Of a DNA stretch of 47,381 nt, positions 21,057 through 44,029 are shown piece by piece. The stretch lies in assembly GCA_012800435.1 (NCBI GenBank), contig JAAZJH010000037.1, forward strand, positions 1 through 47,381, written 5' to 3'. Each line of letters opens with the position of its first letter. The first letter of the stretch is position 1. The DNA is from Clostridiaceae bacterium. Lineage in GTDB: Bacteria; Bacillota; Clostridia; Saccharofermentanales; DTU023. Under the pieces are notes generated by a model that was given only the letters and a program-made list of their open reading frames with translations, ran no database searches and was not told where the DNA came from. Position numbers and translations under genes: made by a program.

Positions 21057-22652
21057 CTATTGCTTGTTCGTTTCTATTCTCAAAATCACCGTGCCGCCAT
21101 CGTCTTTTGAGGGAATGGTGACGGGGAATTTCCCCCACTCATCTGCGCTGTATTTGTTTCCGTTATATAGATCCACAACCTTGCATCCCTTATCTAGACC
21201 GAGGGAAAGCATAAGAACTTGTGTTTCAGGCGTGATATTCACACCAATTACCATCTTCTCGCTTTCATAGGTGCGTGAGAAAAAGCTGATGCCTGCCTCT
21301 TCGTCGATAAAAACTGTTTCGCGATCTCCCTTGCTGAACAATTCCGAATACTGACGACGGACGGCAAGCAATGTCCGGTAGTGATCCAGCATCGGATTGT
21401 TTTTCGTTTTTTTCCAGTCAAAATCGTAACGGTTCTCTGAGAATTCACCTTTGTCCATATTCCTCACTGTTTTTCCGGAAAGACCGATTTCTTCACCGTA
21501 ATAAATTACGGGTTGGCCTTTTGCAGTGATTTGTAGCGTCGCTGCGACCTTAAAAAGCCCTGTATCACCGCCAAGTCTTACAGCTAAAAAGCCGTCTTCA
21601 TCATGCGACGACAAGAATTGACCAACTGTTTTCTCAGGAGTCAGCATTTGATTACGATTCTGGAGGATTTTTTCACACTGTTCAAAATCACCGCGAAGAT
21701 ACCCACGCACAGTGTTTTAAAAAAAAAAGTCAAGCACGGAATCCATGCCGCCGAGTTCAAGTACTTTGCCGTTTGACACAATATCACCGTCAAAATATTC
21801 TCCGATCATCTTGAAATCAGGCTTGACAAGCGTGGCGGCATCTTTGAAAGCTTTGAGCTCTTCGAGGCGTACATGTTTTACTGTATCAACTCGAAAATAA
21901 TCAATCGTACCCCCTTGCGCTGTTGTCGCTTTTTTAATCCAGCCGACTTGCCATTCAATCACTTGATTGAGGACATCCGGGTCTTCTGTTATAAAATCGG
22001 GCAGGCCGGCAAGCTCTCCTTCTATTGCACCCACGCCGGGCTCAAGACGAAGCATCTCTCTGAATACTGCTTGCTCTTCCTTCGTTGGAAAATTCGGGAT
22101 TCCAGGGTTTCTATCAATTTCTTTCATCCCGTAACCGGCGTGGTTGATCACCACGTCTACCATGAGCTTCATTCCGCGATCATGTACTTCGTCCACAAGC
22201 ATTTTGAGTGTCTCAATATCTCCCAAATGCTCATCTACTGATGTAAAATCTTTCGCCCAGTACCCATGGTAACCATACTGCGCGCTCTCTCCATAGCGGA
22301 CATTGAAATCAATATTATCGACTATCGGACTCACCCAGATCGTATTGACACCGAGCTCCTGCAAATAATCCAGCTGATTGATGACCCCTTGCAAATCCCC
22401 TCCGTGGTACGTCTCCGGGTGTGTTACATCATAGTTCTCACCATTCGGATCATCATTCGACGGATCTCCATTGAAGAAGCGATCTGTCAGAAGAAAATAC
22501 ACCACAGCCTCATCAAAATCGAAATCACCTTGCCACATGTCGGACTTAATAACAGAATCTTTTCTAGGAAGGAAAATCAGCACGCAAATAATAAGCAACA
22601 CCGCCGACAACACATAAACAAGCCATCGCTTATTCCGGTCATAAAATTTCAT
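21057..22652 (-). pseudogene. Membrane-anchored GH13 alpha-amylase interrupted by an in-frame TAA
   Basis: Two open segments in the same frame, 22652-21717 (311 codons) and 21716-21057, make one amylase. N-terminal hydrophobic residues 11-29 form an uncleaved anchor or signal, so the enzyme would act outside the membrane. GH13 motifs continue across the break: DVVINHAGYG, YFRVDTVKHV (nucleophile Asp) and MIGEYFDG (acid/base Glu) before it, FLSSHDEDGFL (third Asp) after it. The break reads V-L-D-F-F-F-stop-N-T-V, and the minus strand there is T10 followed by A4. A Lys codon AAA at the stop position would need a single base change. Relatives degrade alpha-glucans such as maltodextrins. It may be a recent nonsense mutation or a sequence error at the homopolymer boundary. 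Confidence 0.85.
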
Positions 22653-31130: not shown

Positions 31131-33185
31131 ATGAAAGATATTTATGAACCTTTGTTTACACCGTGGCACATCGGCAATCTGGAAATTAAAAATCGCATTG
31201 TCATGACTTCCATGGGCGGCACTTCTATTTTCGGTTGGATGGAACCGAACCATTTTGATGAAGAAGCTGCCCGATTTCTGCTTGAACGCGCGAAAAATAA
31301 TGTCGGATTGATTTTGCCCGGCATTGCGCCCGTACGAAATATTCTTTTTGGTCAATGGCTTTACAAAGGCGATCGCAAATTTGAACGCCTTGCCGATTTT
31401 ATGAAGGATTTTCACAAGACGGGATGCAAATTGTTCATCCAGTTGACGGCAGGGTTTGGGCGTTCACTCGCCATTAACGACATTATGATCAAAGCATTAC
31501 AAAATAAAGTTCTTCGCGCGCTTGTGAAACCGGTCATTGATGTGAGCTATCTAACTGCAAGCGCGAGCGCAACACCGAATCGCTGGTACGATGAGGTCTA
31601 TTCGCGTCCAATGACAGTCGAAGAGATTCATGAAATGGTGGATGCTTTTGCGAAAACAGCCAAACGCTGCAAAGATGCCGGCGTGGACGGGATTGAGGTT
31701 CATGCAGTACATGAAGGGTATCTGCTTGACCAATTTACGATGAAATATACGAACCAGCGCACCGATGAATACGGCGGCTCATTCGAAAACCGTTACCGCT
31801 TTCCTGTTGAGATCGTGCAGGCAGTAAAATCTGCGTGTGGCGACGATTTTCCTGTTTCGCTTCGTTATTCTGTCGTATCGAAAACGAAAGGCTTCGGCCA
31901 GGGAGCCCTTCCTGGTGAAGAATATGTTGAAGTCGGACGTGATATGGAAGAAAGCAAGCAGGCGGCCAAATATCTGCAAGATGCCGGTTACGACATGCTG
32001 AATTGCGACAACGGCACGTACGACGCGTGGTACTGGTCGCACCCGGCGCCATATATGCCCACGAACTGCAATTTGTCGGACGCGGAACAAATCAAACCTT
32101 TCGTCGATATCCCCGTCGTCTGCGCGGGACGTATGGAGCCCGATGTTGCAGCTAATGCCATTGCCGAAGGTAGGATTGATGCCATGGGAGTTGCCCGCCC
32201 GTTCTTAAGCGATCCTGAATGGGTGACCAAACTCATCAACGATGACATGGCTTCGATACGCCCCTGTATCTGCTGCCACAACGCCTGCTTTAATATGGCA
32301 AGCTACGAGGGTGTCGGCAACGACCAGCTTCTTAGCGACAATGCAGGCATGGCGCGATGCGCGATCAACCCGAAAACGATGCAATCTAAAAAATACAAAA
32401 TCGTGCCAACCTCCAATCCGAAGGATGTCGCTATCATTGGCGGAGGCATCGGCGGAATGGAGGCTGCTCGCGTATTAAAACTTCGAGGTCACAGACCTGT
32501 CATTTATGAAAAAACGGATCAACTCGGCGGCATTTTCAACGCAGCTGCCGCACCTTCTTTCAAGGAAAAAGACCGCGAACTCCTTGCTTGGTATGACAAA
32601 GAGATGCAAGATCTTGCCATTCCGATCCATTTCAACAGCAACGTCACCGACACAGCAACTCTTACAGCAGATGAGATTATTATCGCTACCGGAGCAAAAC
32701 CTCGTCAACTCCGGGTGCCCGGCATCGAAAAAACGATAGAAGCATGCGAGTATCTCGACGGCACTAAAGACGTCGGCGACCGCGTTATCATCATCGGTGG
32801 CGGCCTTTCCGGCTGCGAAATCGCGCTGGATCTTCACCATAAAGGTAAACAGCCCGTTATCGTGGAGATGATGAACGATCTTATCGCCGTACAAGGTGTT
32901 TGCCTTGCAAACTCATCCTATCTGCGCGAATATTTTGCTCTTCATGATGTCGAAGTGCATTTAAACAGCAAACTTATCGAAGTGACGGGTACCGGTGTCG
33001 TCGTCAAACGCAAGGACGGTTCAGCATATACAATTGAAGGCGACACCGTCCTGATGTCTGTAGGCTACGAGCCCGATCCTCTAGCCGCTTCTTCAAGGAA
33101 AGTACACCTCGTAGGCGATTGCAAAAAAGTGGGGAATCTTCGCACCGTCATTTGGCGCGCATGGGATGTCGCCATGTCCATTTAA
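31131..33185 (+). CDS. NADH:flavin oxidoreductase / 2-enoate reductase (Old Yellow Enzyme, two-domain Fe-S type)
   Basis: 684 aa. An N-terminal FMN TIM barrel (residues 1-370; GIEVHAVHEGYLLDQFT near 190) is joined to a 4Fe-4S motif, CICCHNAC near 379 with the fourth Cys 23 residues later in ARCAINP. A C-terminal FAD/NAD(P) half carries AIIGGGIGGMEAARVL near 433 and VIIIGGGLSGCEIALDL near 551. Relatives include 2,4-dienoyl-CoA reductase, cinnamate reductase FldZ and bile-acid enzyme BaiCD; the substrate is an activated C=C bond, otherwise open. The fourth-Cys spacing is longer than the roughly 11 residues of E. coli dienoyl-CoA reductase and points to a distinct subgroup. GAGGGGGAGGAG gives strong translation. 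Cytoplasmic, monocistronic. Confidence 0.92.
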   Translation: MKDIYEPLFTPWHIGNLEIKNRIVMTSMGGTSIFGWMEPNHFDEEAARFLLERAKNNVGLILPGIAPVRNILFGQWLYKGDRKFERLADFMKDFHKTGCKLFIQLTAGFGRSLAINDIMIKALQNKVLRALVKPVIDVSYLTASASATPNRWYDEVYSRPMTVEEIHEMVDAFAKTAKRCKDAGVDGIEVHAVHEGYLLDQFTMKYTNQRTDEYGGSFENRYRFPVEIVQAVKSACGDDFPVSLRYSVVSKTKGFGQGALPGEEYVEVGRDMEESKQAAKYLQDAGYDMLNCDNGTYDAWYWSHPAPYMPTNCNLSDAEQIKPFVDIPVVCAGRMEPDVAANAIAEGRIDAMGVARPFLSDPEWVTKLINDDMASIRPCICCHNACFNMASYEGVGNDQLLSDNAGMARCAINPKTMQSKKYKIVPTSNPKDVAIIGGGIGGMEAARVLKLRGHRPVIYEKTDQLGGIFNAAAAPSFKEKDRELLAWYDKEMQDLAIPIHFNSNVTDTATLTADEIIIATGAKPRQLRVPGIEKTIEACEYLDGTKDVGDRVIIIGGGLSGCEIALDLHHKGKQPVIVEMMNDLIAVQGVCLANSSYLREYFALHDVEVHLNSKLIEVTGTGVVVKRKDGSAYTIEGDTVLMSVGYEPDPLAASSRKVHLVGDCKKVGNLRTVIWRAWDVAMSI

Positions 33186-33326: not shown

Positions 33327-33368
33327 CGCCGATAACGGATTGTTGTGCCCGCTGTCGGCGCCTGTTTT
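33327..33368 (+). terminator. Probable terminator of the enoate reductase gene
   Basis: CGCCGATAACGG (33327-33338) pairs imperfectly with CCGCTGTCGGCG (33349-33360), 11 of 12 positions counting one G-U, followed by CCTGTTTTC. It is about 140 bp behind the stop codon. Confidence 0.5.
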
Positions 33369-33392
33369 CATTTAATATATTTATTTATCTAT

Positions 33393-33655
33393 GTAAGGCG
33401 ATAGACATCCTTAAAAAATTGACGGTTGTACGACTAGATTTAATCGGCAAGCCAACACACGCCGTCAGTCGGTTGGCGTTTGTACGACTAGACTTAATAG
33501 GCAATTCAATACGCATCCTCGATCTTTTGGCGATGGAATGACTAGACATAATAGGCAAGCCGTTCACGTCATCAATCTGTTGGCGATTGTGCAACAAGAC
33601 TTAATAGGCTAGCCGATAAACTTCCTCTATTTGCTGACGATTGAGCGGACGATAG
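33393..33655. repeat. 53-54 bp tandem array derived from the alcohol dehydrogenase 3' end
   Basis: Units begin with AATAGGC/AATCGGC-like bases at 33394 (weak), 33442, 33496, 33550 and 33603; the last is the real gene end. Read on the minus strand, the gene ends NRQQIEEVYRLAY-stop. The neighbouring unit reads NRQQIDDVNGLPI, the next RQKIEDAY-stop, then RQPTDGVCWLAD-stop and finally NRQFFKDVYRLT-stop. The array is thus a run of decayed copies of the terminal codons plus about 12 bp of flank. Confidence 0.88.
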
Positions 33656-34773
33656 AAGCCGAAAAGATCGCCATTATTCATCTGAATGCGAGAGGCTAAC
33701 AAAGGGATGTCTTCTTCAGGCACAGCAATATCCCGCAGTGTCAACGGCATGCCAATGCTTTTTAGGTATGCCCTAAAGCGGAAAATGCCTTCTTCTGCCA
33801 TCGCAGTCAAGTCATCGGAAGGCTCAACATCAAAAACCTCCGATGCGAACGCCGCTAGCCGTTTCGGATTGTGATCAAGTTGATATTCCATAAAGGCCGG
33901 TAACATCACGGCCAGTCCGGCGCCATGTGCAACTCCGTACAACGCAGATAGCTCGAGTTCCAGCTTATGACTTGACCAATCCTGTTCACGATCCATACCA
34001 AGAATATCGTTGTGCGCGACGGTTCCTGCCCACATCAGGTTAGCGCGCGCCTGATAATCACACGGATTCTTCATCGCGATCTCTCCCTGATGGACAATAG
34101 TTTTCATGACGGCAAAAGACATGCGATCCGTTAATTCGACACCTTCCGTATTCGTAAGATAGCGCTCCATTACATGAGCAATCATATCTGTAATCCCGCA
34201 CGCCGTCTGATAAGGCGGTAACGTAAACATCAATTCGGGATTCATAATTGAAAAAACAGGGCGTATGAGATCTGAACGAATACTCCACTTTGAACGATTG
34301 TTCTCTACATGCGTGATCACACTGGAATTAGATCCCTCAGTGCCTGTTGCGGCAAGCGTGATTACTGTTGCAATCGGCAGCACGCACTCCACCTTCTTTT
34401 CTCCTTTGAAAAAATCCCAAAAATCACCGTCGTATGGGACACCTACAGCAATTGCTTTCGCCGAATCGCAGGCGCTTCCGCCACCTACACCAATGATAAA
34501 ATCGACACCTTCCCTTCTCGAAAGCTCAATACCTTCGTACACTTTGGAAGCTTCAGGATTTGGCACAACGCCGCCAAGGCGAACCGTTTCAATCCCCGCT
34601 TCTTGAAGCGACTCATCAACACGGTCAAGCAATCCTGATCGGATCACCGATCCCTGCCCATAATGCAACAAAACTTTCGTTGCGCCGAAACGCTGTACCA
34701 GCTCCCCAACACGAGACTCGCTATTCCTTCCGAATGCAAAATACGTCGGACTATAAAAACTGAAATCAAGCAT
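33601..34773 (-). CDS. Iron-containing alcohol dehydrogenase (BdhA/YugJ type)
   Basis: 390 aa from ATG 34773, which has GGAAGGAGTG just upstream; a further in-frame ATG seven codons upstream is disfavoured. NAD(P)-binding features are VGGGSACDSAKAIAVG near residue 90 and the domain hinge ATGTEGSNSSVIT near 140. Metal-ligand His residues lie in DMIAHVMERY and GVAHGAGLAVMLPAFMEY, plus His in ILGMDREQDWSSHKLELELS. Clostridial BDH-type enzymes reduce butyraldehyde or acetaldehyde with NAD(P)H. It is followed by a tandem array copying its own 3' end. Confidence 0.93.
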   Translation of the reverse strand: MLDFSFYSPTYFAFGRNSESRVGELVQRFGATKVLLHYGQGSVIRSGLLDRVDESLQEAGIETVRLGGVVPNPEASKVYEGIELSRREGVDFIIGVGGGSACDSAKAIAVGVPYDGDFWDFFKGEKKVECVLPIATVITLAATGTEGSNSSVITHVENNRSKWSIRSDLIRPVFSIMNPELMFTLPPYQTACGITDMIAHVMERYLTNTEGVELTDRMSFAVMKTIVHQGEIAMKNPCDYQARANLMWAGTVAHNDILGMDREQDWSSHKLELELSALYGVAHGAGLAVMLPAFMEYQLDHNPKRLAAFASEVFDVEPSDDLTAMAEEGIFRFRAYLKSIGMPLTLRDIAVPEEDIPLLASRIQMNNGDLFGFYRPLNRQQIEEVYRLAY

Positions 34774-34863
34774 AAAAACACTCCTTCCTATCATCTTCTT
34801 AAAATAACATCGAGATCTTCTGACTTTATTATAGATCAGATTGTATGCTTAACTATCATTTCG

Positions 34864-34908
34864 AATATTTTAAAGGACTCACCTATCGATGAGAGTCCCT
34901 TAAATATT
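34864..34908. terminator. A/T-rich hairpin between dehydrogenase and nucleoside phosphorylase
   Basis: AATATTTTAAAGGACTC (34864-34880) and GAGTCCCTTAAATATT (34893-34908) form a stem of about 15 pairs around a 12-nt loop. It lies beyond the repeat array 3' of the phosphorylase gene and may terminate that minus-strand transcript. No separate T-run follows, but the stem base is A/T only. Confidence 0.45.
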
Positions 34909-34994
34909 CAAGAGATTAAATTTGAAAGATTCTTGAGAATGTTTTATTCGATATTCAGCAGATAATTCTAGGTTCTTTGACAAACCTTTGTCAT

Positions 34995-35190
34995 GAGCTT
35001 TATCAGATTAATCTACGTAAAAATCTTGATGGAGACCTTGGAACGAGCTTTGGCGGACAAATCTACTAAAGATACTCGATAAAACCTCTGCAATGAGTTT
35101 TGGCAGATAGGTATGCAAATAATTCTTAGCGGAGTCTTCCGGTAAGCCTTATGTAAATAGGGGCAGATTGATGTTCGATTTGGCAACTAA
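34995..35190. repeat. 50 bp tandem repeats 3' of the nucleoside phosphorylase gene
   Basis: GAGCTTT-AT/GG-C begins at 34995, 35045 and 35095, exactly 50 bp apart; GAGCTTTGGCGGACAAAT and GAGTTTTGGCAGATAGGT are the clearest pair. A looser further copy carries GGCAGATTGATG at 35162, and a fifth possible copy lies just before 34995 (CAGCAGATAATTC). On the minus strand CCGCTAAGAATTATT in this array resembles CCGCTAATCTATG and AAATTATTC at the end of the phosphorylase gene. Confidence 0.7.
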
Positions 35191-35206: not shown

Positions 35207-36535
35207 TCAAACATCTTCGCCTCGAATAATTTCATAGATTAGCGGAAATTTTTCCAGAGGCGTTGAGCCGATTTGGACGGCGCTTAATACTCTGTTGATT
35301 GAGTCTTGTTCATTCGTTTCATCGTTGATATAGAGCGTGCAAAGAGGCGTGTCTTGTGAAACGGAATCCCCTACACGTACATGCATCATGATACCTACAG
35401 CAGGATCGATAGGATCTTCTTTTCTCGCTCTACCAGCACCCAATACTTGTGCCGCTTTACCAAGTTCCTCTGTATCCATTGCTTGAATGATTCCGGCATT
35501 ACTTACATAGACTTGAACTTTTTTCTCAACTTTACAAAGCTCATTGATTTGATACGGATCGCAATAGCGCTCATCACCGCCCATGGCCTTTACCATCGCT
35601 TTAAATTTAGCCAGTCCTGCACCACTGATAATAGCCTCTTGTAAGCGGTCTGTAGCTTCTTCTTTATTTTGAGCCAGTCCGGAGAGCATCAGCATCTCGG
35701 CACCGAGCGTCAGGCAGAGTCGGAAGAGCGGATCTTCCGGAGCGATTCGATCTGAGAGCAGTTCTATGGCTTCGCGCACTTCCAGCGCATTGCCGATGGC
35801 CATACCCAAGGGTTGGTTCATGTCTGTAACGACCGCCGTAACGCTTCTATCAAGATGTTTTCCGAGTGCAACCATCAATCTTGCAAGATCAATGGCTTCT
35901 TTTGTCGTCCTCATAAATGCGCCATTGCCCGTCTTGACATCAAGAACGATCGCATCCGAACCGGCAGCTAGTTTTTTCGACATGATGCTTGACGCAATAA
36001 GCGGGATGCTCCTGACGGTTCCCGTTACGTCGCGCAAGGCATAGATGAGCTTATCCGCAGGCACGAGGTTTCCGCTTTGACCTATTACAGCAACACCTAC
36101 TTCGTTGACAATACGAAGAAATTGATCTGGACTTTGCTCAACATTAAGCCCCGGGAAAGACTCTAATTTATCAATCGTACCACCCGTAAATGACAATCCT
36201 CTTCCGGACATTTTAGCAACTACGCCGCCACAAGCGGCGACAAGCGGTGCTATGACAAGCGTTGTCGTGTCACCTACACCGCCGGTGGAGTGCTTATCCA
36301 CTTTAACTCCGTCAATGCCCGATAAATCAACAACATCACCTGAATGCATCATGGCATATGTCAAATCTGCCGTTTCACGATCGTCCATGCCGTTGAGGCG
36401 AACAGCCATCAACAATGCTGCCATCTGTTCGTCCGGAATTCGGCCGTTTGTGTAATTTTCTACCACAAAGTGAATTTCTTCTGTCGTAAGTGGCAGCTTC
36501 TCAACTTTCTTGTCGATACAGTCGATGATTCTCAT
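35207..36535 (-). CDS. pdp: Pyrimidine-nucleoside phosphorylase
   Basis: 442 aa, the normal size for Pdp/DeoA. It cleaves uridine, thymidine and deoxyuridine with phosphate to give the base and (deoxy)ribose-1-phosphate. The thymidine/pyrimidine-nucleoside phosphorylase signature is seen near residue 115 as SGRGLSFTGGTIDKLESFPG, with the phosphate-binding VDKHSTGGVGDTTTL near 82 and DVTGTVRSIPLIASSIMSKKLAAG (in two stretches) near 168. The broad-specificity Firmicutes enzyme is the closest match. AGGAG precedes the ATG. Usual partners (cdd, deoC, nupG) are not adjacent. Confidence 0.95.
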   Translation of the reverse strand: MRIIDCIDKKVEKLPLTTEEIHFVVENYTNGRIPDEQMAALLMAVRLNGMDDRETADLTYAMMHSGDVVDLSGIDGVKVDKHSTGGVGDTTTLVIAPLVAACGGVVAKMSGRGLSFTGGTIDKLESFPGLNVEQSPDQFLRIVNEVGVAVIGQSGNLVPADKLIYALRDVTGTVRSIPLIASSIMSKKLAAGSDAIVLDVKTGNGAFMRTTKEAIDLARLMVALGKHLDRSVTAVVTDMNQPLGMAIGNALEVREAIELLSDRIAPEDPLFRLCLTLGAEMLMLSGLAQNKEEATDRLQEAIISGAGLAKFKAMVKAMGGDERYCDPYQINELCKVEKKVQVYVSNAGIIQAMDTEELGKAAQVLGAGRARKEDPIDPAVGIMMHVRVGDSVSQDTPLCTLYINDETNEQDSINRVLSAVQIGSTPLEKFPLIYEIIRGEDV

Positions 36536-39640: not shown

Positions 39641-39669
39641 CACACAAATGAATTAATATTTTCAGCGTT

Positions 39670-39890
39670 TCTGCGACATCACGCCGATATCGCTTTGGAT
39701 GTGATTACTCGGTTGATTTTGAATCGACGATCGCACGCAATTTTTCTAGGAACTCTTTCTGCGACATCACGCCGATATCGCTTTGGACGCGATTACTCGG
39801 TTGATTTTGAATCGACGATCGAACGCAATTTTCCTAGGAACTCTTTCTGCGGCATCACGCCGATATCGCCTTTGGCGCGATGTCTGACGG
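39670..39890. repeat. 88 bp tandem duplication of the thrS 3' end
   Basis: TCTGCGACATCACGCCGATA begins at 39670 and 39758, and as TCTGCGGCATCACGCCGATA at 39846, exactly 88 bp apart each time. The first two units are nearly identical over their whole length, and each includes the stop codon and the last codons of thrS. Read on the minus strand the gene ends GDIGVMPQKEFLGKLRSIVD-SKSTE-stop; the next copy reads SDIGVMSQKEFLEKLRAIVD-SKSTE-stop and the last is cut off at SDIGVMSQKR-stop. Confidence 0.95.
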
Positions 39891-41586
39891 AAACGTGCCC
39901 GTTTTCTCTTTCCTTGTCGCCGACAATGAGCATAAATGGGATTTTCTCCACTTGTGCTTCGCGGATTTTTTTCCCGACTTTTTCGCTTCGATCATCCACT
40001 GTCACGCGGTAGCCTTCCTCTTTCAATGCGTCGGCAATGTCCTCAGCGTAGTCGTGGACGCGATCTGTAATCGGAAGGACCCGCACCTGCTCGGGAGCCA
40101 TCCATGTCGGCAGCGCGCCGCCGTATTTCTCAATGAGCAGGGCTAGCGTGCGCTCGTAACAGCCGATGGACGTGCGGTGAATGATATATGGCGTTTGCAT
40201 TTCGTTGTTGCTGTCCGTGTATTGCATACCGAATTGTTGCGCGAGCAGCATATCAATCTGAATAGTAATCAGCGTATCTTCTTTCCCAAATACATTTCTG
40301 AATTGGATGTCAAGTTTTGGGCCGTAGAAAGCCGCTTCATCAATGCCCACTTTGTAATCCAGATCAAGGTTATCGAGGATCATTTGCATGGCGGATTCCG
40401 CCTTCTCCCACTGCTCCGCAGTTCCCTGATATTTTTTCCCCTCATTTGCCGGATCCCATCTCGAGAACTGGTAATAGCAGTCCTCTTTGAGACCTAGCGT
40501 TTCAAGCATGAAGTTTGCAAGCTCAATACAAGCCTTGAATTCCTCTTCCAGCTGATCCGGCCGGATGATCAGATGCGCTTCCGAAATCGTAAACTGACGC
40601 ACGCGAATGAGTCCGTGCATCTCTCCGCTCTCCTCATTGCGAAATAACGTGGACGTTTCGTTGAGGCGCATGGGTAAGTCTTTGTAAGAACGCTTCCGGT
40701 TCAGGAATACTTGATATTGGAATGGACACGTCATCGGCCTCAGCGCATAACAATCCTTCGTTTCATCGTCCGGATCGCCGATGATAAACATGCCGTCTCG
40801 GTAATGATCCCAGTGGCCTGAAATTTTATAAAGTTCGCGTTTTGCCATATACGGCGTCTTGGTCAGATGGTAACCGCGTTTTTGTTCTTCATCCTCAACC
40901 CATCGCGACAGGATCTGAATAACGCGCGCGCCTTTGGGAAGCAGGATCGGCAGACCTTGACCGATGTAGTCCACCGTTGTGAAGTATTCCAGCTCACGCC
41001 CCAATTTATTGTGGTCATTCTTTAACGCTTCTTCGCGTTTTACGAGCCATTCATCAAGTTCGCTTTTCTTCGGGAACGCGATGCCGTAAATACGCTGGAG
41101 CATCTTATTCTTAGAATCACCGTGCCAGTAAGCGCCGGATGACGACAGAAGCTTAATGCCGTTATGCTTGATTCTGCCCGTAGAATCGATATGAGGACCC
41201 GCACAAAGATCGATAAACTCACCTTGTCGATAAAAAGAGATGTGTTCGCCTTCCGGCAAATCGTTAATAATCTCAACCTTGTACGGTTCGCCGCGCTCTT
41301 GCATCAAATGAAGCGCCTCGTCTTTCGGAAGCTCAAATCTTTCTATCGGAAGCTTTTCCTTGCAAATCTTACTCATTTCGACTTCTATAGCATCAAGATC
41401 ATCCCGCGTGAAGGGTTTCTCGACATCAAAATCGTAATAAAACCCTGCTTCGATAGCAGGACCGATCCCAAGTTTTGCCTCCGGAAAAAGTCGTTTCACA
41501 GCTTGTGCGAGAACATGGGAACAGCTGTGCCAATATGTTTTTTTGTATGCCTCATTCTCAAAAGAATAAATGCTTTTTTCCTTCAT
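39793..41586 (-). CDS. thrS: Threonyl-tRNA synthetase
   Basis: 597 aa class II synthetase lacking the N-terminal TGS domain: the protein starts at the editing (SAD) domain (WHSCSHVLAQAVKRLFP; HxxxH is the editing metal site, with CAGPHIDSTG completing it). Catalytic motifs follow: motif 2 LPMRLNETSTLFRNEESGEMHG (given here as the region near residue 310), zinc ligands Cys and His in MTCPFQYQ and HRTSIGCYER, and the C-terminal anticodon-binding domain from APEQVRVLPI. The short form without TGS is known in some Firmicutes. It charges tRNA-Thr. A T-box riboswitch precedes it and an 88 bp duplication follows it. Confidence 0.95.
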   Translation of the reverse strand: MKEKSIYSFENEAYKKTYWHSCSHVLAQAVKRLFPEAKLGIGPAIEAGFYYDFDVEKPFTRDDLDAIEVEMSKICKEKLPIERFELPKDEALHLMQERGEPYKVEIINDLPEGEHISFYRQGEFIDLCAGPHIDSTGRIKHNGIKLLSSSGAYWHGDSKNKMLQRIYGIAFPKKSELDEWLVKREEALKNDHNKLGRELEYFTTVDYIGQGLPILLPKGARVIQILSRWVEDEEQKRGYHLTKTPYMAKRELYKISGHWDHYRDGMFIIGDPDDETKDCYALRPMTCPFQYQVFLNRKRSYKDLPMRLNETSTLFRNEESGEMHGLIRVRQFTISEAHLIIRPDQLEEEFKACIELANFMLETLGLKEDCYYQFSRWDPANEGKKYQGTAEQWEKAESAMQMILDNLDLDYKVGIDEAAFYGPKLDIQFRNVFGKEDTLITIQIDMLLAQQFGMQYTDSNNEMQTPYIIHRTSIGCYERTLALLIEKYGGALPTWMAPEQVRVLPITDRVHDYAEDIADALKEEGYRVTVDDRSEKVGKKIREAQVEKIPFMLIVGDKERENGHVSVRHRAKGDIGVMPQKEFLGKLRSIVDSKSTE

Positions 41587-41825: not shown

Positions 41826-41999
41826 GCCATTTGGAGTTATTATAATCAGGGCGCATTTCAAAATCAACTAATAATTCATCCGGTAACCTATGTCTCCCAA
41901 CCCATCCTGTATTCCCAACTAAACCAAACAGAGAGACGGTTTGCTCAACAAGTCTCCCCCCGCCTTCTGCAGAGCTCGGGGCTAGAAGCTGAATTAAGT

Positions 42000-42083
42000 T
42001 ATCGACATTCGAGTATTCTTTGATATTTATCGATATTCGAGTATCCTGTGATATTTATCGATATTCGAGTGTTCTGCGATATC
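42000..42083. repeat. 28 bp tandem repeat, three copies
   Basis: TTATCGACATTCGAGTATTC starts at 42000, TTATCGATATTCGAGTATCC at 42028 and TTATCGATATTCGAGTGTTC at 42056, each unit exactly 28 bp and ending GATAT. The array lies eight bases behind the stop of the acyl-CoA synthetase gene. The stretch 41870-41999 between it and the T-box shows nothing recognisable. Confidence 0.93.
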
Positions 42084-42091
42084 GATAGCCG

Positions 42092-44029
42092 TTACTTTTT
42101 ACTTTGCTGGTGCTCCATCAAAAGATCGATGTTTTTTCCGCGAAGCTGTTGCCACGTTGCCTTTGAATTGCGTATAAATTCTTCTAGGCGGGACATTTCG
42201 ATATGGCGGCGTACCTTCAATGTTGTCGTCTTCACCATGTCTTGAAAACTGTAAAAATAAGAGCGAATCACCTTGAATGAGGGCAGCATACGGTTGACTT
42301 TCGCGATCAACGCTTCTACGGCATTCGAGTAATCATCTTCTGTAGGCTCCCGTTGCAAAATGTCTTGGAGCACTTGCCGATCCAGCACCAATTTCGCCGT
42401 TACCACCATATCGCCCGACGAACACTCATGCCCAAACACCAACGCGTCGCGAATCAACGCATCTTGATTTAACAGCGCTTCAATCTCTTCAGGAAATACT
42501 TTTTTGCCGTTCGCCAGAACGATCATCGATTTGCTCCGGCCGGTAATTATCAAGCTCCCGTGGCGTGTCCAACGTCCCACATCGGCCGTATGCAACCATC
42601 CGTCTTCATCGATTGCTTCCGCCGTCGCCTCCGGATCGTCAAGATAGCCTTTCATCACAATATCGGAACGCACCAATATTTCACCGGTGCCTGATCCATC
42701 ATCATCTATGGCGACTTCAACGCCTGCAAGCGGTTCTCCCGTCGTGCCGTACCGGTTGACTTTGGTGTTACCGCCACCGACAACAGGGGACGCCTCAGTC
42801 AAACCGTAACCGGCTAACACCTCGACACCGATCGCGCGGAAAAAGTAGAGCGTATCACGTGACACAGGCGCGGCACCGCAAATAACATATTTAAACTGTC
42901 CGCCTAGCTGATCAAGAACATCGCGGAAAATCGCGCGGCGCTTATCAATGCCGAGTTTGTAAAGCAGAGTGGAGAGTTTAAGTCCAAATTTTAGTTTTTT
43001 CAAACTACCTTGTTTCTCGGCTTCGTTTAGAATCCTACGCTTCATAGCGTCTAAAATCGCCGGTACCGCAACCGTTAATTGAACCTTATATTCTTTAAGA
43101 TTACGACCGATGTAGCGCAGACCGTCATTGAGGTGAATGGTGCCTCCCAAGGTCATTACTGTCAGGAAGCCGCACGTATTTTCAAAGGCGTGATGCAACG
43201 GAAGCATTGATAGCGTTTGCAGGGGATCCGGAAAAGAAACGGAGCCCAAAAGAGCGCGGAGATCCGCAGCGATGGATTTATTGGTAAGAATGACCGCCTT
43301 GGATGTAGCGCTTGTCCCCGATGTGAAGAGAATTGCGGCGTCATCTTCAACAGAGGCAAGCGGCAATAGCCCGTAGTCCTCTTCTTCGCTTTTGGAACCG
43401 GAAGATAATACATTTTGAGAGACTTCTGAAACAGTAGTGACGTTAGGCGAGTGCGCGATTTCCTCACTAGAAAGCGCATCATCAAGAAGGAAGAGTTTGG
43501 AATCGTTCGCTATCTCATCACGCAGCGTTTGGCGTTGTTCATCTTTCATCAGACCGCGATCCATAACACCACGCCATTCAAGACTAAGCACATCCTCCAT
43601 AAAATCACCGACCATGTCGTGCCAAGCCGCATCATAAATCAACATGGGAGCGCCGGAACGGCGAAGAATCGCCTTTACTTCGTGGACATTAAGCAGACGA
43701 TCGATAGGAACGATGACGCCGAATCCTGACGCGACTGCAAGCCAGACTACCATCCAGAGATAGCTGTTGTCGCCCACCAAGGCAATTCGACTTCCTTTCG
43801 GCAAACGCGCCGCCAAGCAAGACTGTACCGCAACGACATCTCGGGAGAACTCCTTGTACGTTCGCTCTTGCACCGTTTTGTCTTGAGAACGAATACGCCA
43901 ACGCACGGCAACGCGGTCACTGAAAAGTCGATTGCCTCGTATCAAAACATCGCGAAGTTCATAGACAGGAGGCGCCTCATACCATACACGCCCCACTCGT
44001 ATCTTGCGTCGTGTCTTAATAATTGTCAT
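42092..44029 (-). CDS. Long-chain acyl-CoA synthetase / AMP-dependent ligase
   Basis: 645 aa ANL-superfamily enzyme activating a fatty or related acid through an acyl-adenylate. The P-loop-like motif is ILFTSGTSATSKAVILTNKS near residue 233, then LPLHHAFE, GYGLTEASPV near 405, WLHTADVGRW near 470 and the hinge/lysine region SMIVLANGKKVFPEEIE near 495. A Ser/Glu/Asn-rich segment at about 184-219, just before the P-loop, is longer than in most relatives. No membrane segment. AAAGGA precedes the ATG by ten bases. Single gene; substrate chain length cannot be told. Confidence 0.92.
   Translation of the reverse strand: MTIIKTRRKIRVGRVWYEAPPVYELRDVLIRGNRLFSDRVAVRWRIRSQDKTVQERTYKEFSRDVVAVQSCLAARLPKGSRIALVGDNSYLWMVVWLAVASGFGVIVPIDRLLNVHEVKAILRRSGAPMLIYDAAWHDMVGDFMEDVLSLEWRGVMDRGLMKDEQRQTLRDEIANDSKLFLLDDALSSEEIAHSPNVTTVSEVSQNVLSSGSKSEEEDYGLLPLASVEDDAAILFTSGTSATSKAVILTNKSIAADLRALLGSVSFPDPLQTLSMLPLHHAFENTCGFLTVMTLGGTIHLNDGLRYIGRNLKEYKVQLTVAVPAILDAMKRRILNEAEKQGSLKKLKFGLKLSTLLYKLGIDKRRAIFRDVLDQLGGQFKYVICGAAPVSRDTLYFFRAIGVEVLAGYGLTEASPVVGGGNTKVNRYGTTGEPLAGVEVAIDDDGSGTGEILVRSDIVMKGYLDDPEATAEAIDEDGWLHTADVGRWTRHGSLIITGRSKSMIVLANGKKVFPEEIEALLNQDALIRDALVFGHECSSGDMVVTAKLVLDRQVLQDILQREPTEDDYSNAVEALIAKVNRMLPSFKVIRSYFYSFQDMVKTTTLKVRRHIEMSRLEEFIRNSKATWQQLRGKNIDLLMEHQQSKK

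Follow-up and report, generated by a model that had tools for sequence, protein, structure and literature searches.

Mycobacterial interspersed repetitive units (MIRU) are tandem units located between genes; they overlap the ends of the neighbouring genes and form a dispersed family. Variable loci of Escherichia coli include minisatellites that belong to no repeat family, with units of at least 20 bp and at least 90% identity (Touzain et al. 2010, PMC2884548). Replication slippage is one accepted route to partial gene duplication (review PMC3449122). Our search of the literature on gene-tail duplications in bacteria, which left most subscription journals outside, yielded no direct precedent.

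The window, that is, the whole analysed stretch of DNA, is contig C10 (47,381 bp) of a 1.62-Mb draft genome consisting of 85 contigs (89% complete assembly), further referred to as G000. A tandem array is located here between two convergent genes encoding an FMN/FAD oxidoreductase (31131-33185, plus strand) and an iron-containing alcohol dehydrogenase (ADH; minus strand). The ADH product matches the Pfam domains Fe-ADH (9.8e-43) and ADH_Fe_C (2.7e-36), and its amino acid identity to the orthologues from the congeneric genomes G003 and G011 is 93% and 90%, respectively. G003, the nearest relative of G000 by this gene, matches the Clostridiaceae metagenome assembly JAAZJV010000208.1. The features of the locus are as follows.

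33601..34794, minus strand: iron-containing ADH gene, intact open reading frame of 397 aa ending in ...NRQQIEEVYRLAY*
33595..33647, minus strand: the ADH gene's own tail with its stop codon, which serves as unit 0 of the array and is subject to coding selection
33541..33594, minus strand: decayed unit u1, 39/52 (75%) identical to the ADH tail; NRQQIDDV, then a 1-nt deletion
33487..33540, minus strand: decayed unit u2, 37/53 (70%) identical to the ADH tail; RQKIEDAY*
33433..33486, minus strand: decayed unit u3, 34/53 (64%) identical to the ADH tail; RQPTDGVCWLAD*
about 33389..33432, minus strand: decayed unit u4, 28/53 (53%) identical to the ADH tail, borderline by itself; RQFFKDVYRLT*
33327..33361, no strand assigned: inverted repeat CGCCGATAACGG...CGCTGTCGGCG, a terminator-like hairpin that separates the array from the convergent FMN/FAD oxidoreductase gene and is preserved in the relative G003

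Starting from the ADH tail (on the minus strand, CTCAATCGTCAGCAAATAGAGGAAGTTTATCGGCTAGCCTATTAA), the units follow each other head-to-tail with spacings of 53, 54, 54 and 54 bp, and their nucleotide identity to the tail drops with distance from 75% to 53%. The first-pass annotation had described five decayed copies of the ADH C-terminus, regularly spaced by 53–54 bp and diverged in sequence. The array, its spacing and its divergence are real; its composition is one intact tail followed by four decayed copies. The further statement that most units end in a stop codon holds for u2, u3 and u4 and fails for u1, which has the 1-nt deletion and no stop. Units u1–u3 are approximately 69–75% alike; u4 is only 51–53% similar to any other unit, its kinship being indicated mostly by the 54-bp spacing and register, the position and the peptide. 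Tandem Repeats Finder reported the array twice, at 33419-33643 (period 54, 4.2 copies, 71% matches) and at 33432-33627 (period 107, 1.8 copies, 75% matches). The double unit scored above the single one, which is compatible with expansion in steps of two units.

The alignment of the ADH tail with the downstream gap scored 43, compared with a mean of 20 and a standard deviation of 2.6 for shuffled sequences (z = 9); none of 1000 shuffles reached this score. For the first unit against the tail, the score was likewise 43, with shuffles at 17.5 (standard deviation 2.6). The internal 54-bp periodicity of the array gave z = 22 against shuffles. The similarity is thus well above that of random A/T-rich sequence, the level which the first-pass annotation had named as fatal to its reading. 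As judged by alignment, homology to the ADH tail beyond the level of shuffles is established for u1–u3 and is borderline for u4. As all the units come after the intact TAA codon of the ADH gene, translation of the enzyme does not include them. GAY, or GGC as its likely descendant, is found in all four units where the ADH gene and both its orthologues have GAA. This shared state suggests that the template for the later units was an earlier unit rather than the gene.

We then compared the locus in the relatives, with one genome per species. In both G003 and G011 the same ADH gene ends with the same stop codon, with no clear array behind it. G003 shares with G000 the end of the neighbouring oxidoreductase gene and the terminator-like hairpin, which is the only convincing hairpin of the ADH 3’ region and lies beyond the array; it is thus retained in G003 without a clear array. 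A weak trace of one unit was observed behind the ADH gene of G011 (L003; p = 0.004 relative to dinucleotide-shuffled sequences, in one of several tests), and the trace in G003 (L002) was not significant (p = 0.14). The array either arose on the G000 branch, or is older and was nearly erased in G003 and G011. Given that a clear array is absent behind the ADH stop codon in both relatives, the number of copies has not been conserved between species.

The decay of the copies can be set against the evolution of the gene itself. In the ADH tail, differences from the orthologues L002 and L003 occur at third codon positions only (0, 0 and 9 by codon position). Between the ADH gene and u1 there are 0, 1 and 10 differences at codon positions 1, 2 and 3. 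The extant ADH gene contains derived synonymous bases (GTT for GTG, CTA for CTT, CAA for CAG), while u1 still agrees there with at least one of the two orthologues; hence the gene continued to evolve synonymously, under purifying selection, after the copy had arisen. The changes on the u1 branch, assigned by hand and small in number, also lean to third positions (about 6 of 7). Such a lean is not predicted by pure neutral decay. As a general sign of translated copies, the third-position excess was rejected, since it is absent when the other tail copies are pooled (43, 28 and 44 mismatches at codon positions 1, 2 and 3; p = 0.28).

A separate observation concerns the 5’ side of the ADH gene. 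About 290 bp of non-coding DNA (34795-35084) are 87% identical between G000 and G003 (L211), and the differences show no codon periodicity; the third codon positions of the ADH gene are 64% identical between the same genomes. This stretch contains a hairpin, GGACTC...GAGTCC, and has no match in Rfam. It is likely to be a conserved leader or regulatory region.

We consider it most likely that the ADH array represents relics of short tandem duplications spanning the 3’-end of the gene, which then underwent decay and turnover. Relic duplication was one of two explanations offered by the first-pass annotation, and it is borne out: the units share homology with the tail, have decayed, are not translated, and fit a pattern seen across the genome. 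Slippage during replication, or else unequal recombination, would copy the last 50 or so bases of the ADH gene, stop codon included, in tandem. The upstream copy would retain the reading frame and the stop codon, leaving the enzyme unaffected, and for this reason the extra copies would be tolerated and free to multiply, drift and be deleted. Duplications of this kind arise throughout the non-coding DNA of G000. Selection purges those that break a frame or displace a start region, and the survivors are found between genes, across stop codons, and in frame within genes.

In a survey of gene tails, the final 200 bp of every gene were compared with the 500 bp behind it, and scores of at least 32 were counted. 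In G000 the survey covered 856 kb, about half of the genome. Tails passed the threshold in 15 cases out of 416, whereas none of 413 gene heads compared with the upstream DNA did so, and 0.2 cases were expected from mis-paired tails. The list of 15 takes in two cases of the repeat-spacer-repeat type considered below; 13/416 remain after their removal. The ADH array itself scores below the threshold of 32, which makes the count a conservative one. A simpler gene caller gave 13/395 tails and 2/407 heads for G000 (p = 0.003). This one caller, applied to all samples, yielded 3/83 tails in G003 and G011 together and 3/517 in a comparison set that draws on further members of the genus and of the order and on diverse loci surrounding homologous genes. 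Tail copies were accordingly found at 16/478 gene ends (3.3%) in the clade of three species (G000, G003 and G011) and at 3/517 (0.6%) elsewhere (p = 0.002). This rate is unusual and speaks against a simple relic view.

Tandem arrays were further sought as repeats with periods of 18–160 bp. G000 contained 53 non-coding arrays: 39 intergenic, 13 across a stop codon, and one across a start codon. The 18 arrays within genes all have periods that are multiples of three. Such a distribution is what should remain when duplications arise generally and purifying selection then acts as a filter. The density of non-coding arrays in G000 was 3.2–3.4 per 10 kb, compared with approximately 1–1.7 in pooled samples of other genomes; individual samples varied from 0.4 to 2.5 per 10 kb. 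Loss of repair was considered as a cause of the high duplication rate. MutS, RecJ and SbcD are all present in G000, so their loss does not explain it. As an aside, the SbcD homologues of the clade (G000:C39:15851, G003:C110:14494, G011:C55:7412) have open frames of 467–511 aa and are longer than the over-threshold homologues of other relatives (298–406 aa).

Other genes in the window and in the relatives show comparable arrangements. Those in the window are listed here.

39705..39792, minus strand: copy of the end of the threonyl-tRNA synthetase (ThrRS) gene (39793-41586, minus strand), 88 bp, 82/88 identical to the gene tail
39658..39704, minus strand: partial third copy of the ThrRS tail, 39/47 identical to copy 1
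34988..35126, no strand assigned: tandem array of diverged 50-bp units following the pyrimidine nucleoside phosphorylase gene (35207-36535, minus strand), not derived from the coding tail of this gene, to which it has no similarity
41999..42082, no strand assigned: tandem array of three 28-bp units directly following the AMP-ligase gene (42092-44029, minus strand), unlike the gene tail; its units contain TATCGATA-like palindromes

The last 88 bp of the ThrRS gene are thus copied 1.5 times behind the stop codon in G000. A copy of the same length is located behind the ThrRS gene of G011 (L231), and in G003 (L232) a 36-bp stretch behind the stop codon resembles, by eye, a remnant with internal deletions, the alignment giving only 17/36. 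Each of the full copies from G000 and G011 has changes specific to the gene of its own species, and the G011 copy preserves older synonymous bases no longer present in the G011 gene. The duplicated tail in G011 is flanked by the near-identical 6-mers ATCGCT (left) and ATCGCG (right), a microhomology read at this one locus, which agrees with what slippage between short direct repeats predicts. The second example is a TrkH-like gene (named by eye), with tail copies in G000 (period 61) and G011 (period of about 71), each resembling its own gene; the G011 copies are identical over 32 bp. The resemblance to the own gene in two species calls for recurrence or gene conversion and not for one old event; tail copies thus recur or are renewed at the same genes. 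An array homologous to that at 34988-35126 is present in G003 (lag 99). Elsewhere in the window, an alpha-amylase-like gene is split into two adjacent frames on the same strand (21057-21710 and 21717-22652), which may reflect a frameshift, an assembly error or a pseudogene.

The ThrRS and TrkH-like copies, each closest to its own gene, speak in favour of a different reading, in which a lineage-specific continuing process acts on the 3’-ends of genes in particular and copies them into the DNA behind the stop codon, e.g. when replication stalls at the hairpins of terminators or when gene conversion between tail and copy is repeated. The tail copies would thereby be renewed as the gene itself changes. 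The 32-bp identity of the TrkH copies in G011, the period differing between species, and the high rate in the clade agree with it. If it were true, gene ends of this clade would be recurrent hot spots of duplication and a source of new C-termini. We regard this explanation as unlikely, though it retains more weight than the other alternatives. Tandem arrays are more frequent throughout the non-coding DNA of G000, and of the 39 intergenic ones 17 are nearest a 3’-end, 19 are nearest a 5’-end, and three are undecided; as they are equally common near both ends, no special preference for 3’-ends is needed. Moreover, the ADH copies are older and not homogenized.

Distinctly less probable is selection of the array as an element of the 3’-UTR, be it an mRNA stabilizer, a processing site or a structural RNA around the stop codon. 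The array lies between the stop codon and the hairpin shared with G003, and so is probably within the transcript, and the outer parts of the units (GTCTAGTCGTACAA, GGCTTGCCTATTAA) appear to be better preserved than the middle. However, the 361-nt 3’ region comprising the gene end, the array and the terminator folds no better than shuffled sequences (z = −0.37). The consensus structure of the five units has −0.5 kcal/mol and 4 pairs, that is, no structure is shared by the units. The Rfam search of the window returned two tRNAs and no family at the array. Finally, a clear array is missing from two congeners and the units are only 51–75% alike. The suggestion of the first-pass annotation that selection may keep a structural RNA around the stop codon thus finds no support, and no function is indicated for the ADH array.

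Gene 3’-ends are frequent targets of integrases, so that the array might be a footprint of attachment-site duplication at the 3’-end of the gene or of off-target integration by Cas1-Cas2. In three to four places of G000, about 29 near-identical bases flank about 32 unrelated bases with a period of 61 bp, and two of these pairs are at gene ends.

L111:2311-2400, L123:4114-4203 and L144:5409-5496: repeat-spacer-repeat pairs with period 61 and unrelated repeat sequences
2788-2868 of the window: 20-bp version of a repeat-spacer-repeat pair

In their geometry, these pairs resemble a type I-E CRISPR unit and the product of off-target Cas1-Cas2 integration. The CRISPR systems of the relatives have other periods: G003 encodes cas4-cas1-cas2 with a 32-bp repeat and a 66-bp period (type I-C-like), and in G011 cas1-cas2 adjoin an array with a period of about 64 bp. 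Cas1 was not found in G000, whose assembly is 89% complete. The ‘spacer’ at L123 holds a partial tail copy, and this pair probably represents a tail array that has degraded. For the L111 spacer, a core of 27 bases had no match among viral contigs. At the ADH locus, the whole 53–54 bp unit is homologous, with neither an unrelated spacer nor an island, and no recombinase gene is apparent nearby. A Cas1-Cas2 scar was therefore rejected for this locus, and a mobile-DNA origin as a whole is very improbable. Chance similarity between A/T-rich sequences has practically no probability: it could appeal to u4, which is borderline alone, and for u1–u3 it is refuted by the tail match and the periodicity, the u1 mismatches being moreover concentrated at third codon positions.

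The relic reading thus places the array among short tandem duplications, and the ADH locus together with the genome-wide counts demonstrates how selection shapes them: they are kept in frame within genes, tolerated across stop codons, and nearly absent across start codons. The three-species clade is flagged because copies of gene tails are unusually frequent in it. They are a source of confusion in gene annotation and provide raw material from which altered C-termini can arise.

Among the described systems, MIRUs resemble the array in their position at gene junctions. They are dispersed, whereas the ADH unit has no relatives elsewhere in G000: apart from the locus itself, the genome search gave three weak matches of 14–29 bp (best E = 0.013), which rules out a dispersed repeat family of the REP or MIRU type. 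Partial (3’-terminal) gene duplicates share with the ADH case the tandem duplication of a part of a gene; here, however, only about 45 coding bases were duplicated, several times over, and no new gene was formed. Bacterial minisatellites, or VNTR loci, produced by slipped-strand mispairing, are likewise head-to-tail, have units of tens of bases, are mostly intergenic, and differ in number between related genomes. The ADH array differs from them in that it was founded by the coding end of the neighbouring gene and its copies are old (51–75% identity), below the threshold of the minisatellite survey. With these distinctions, the array belongs to a known kind, that of partial gene duplications and minisatellites.
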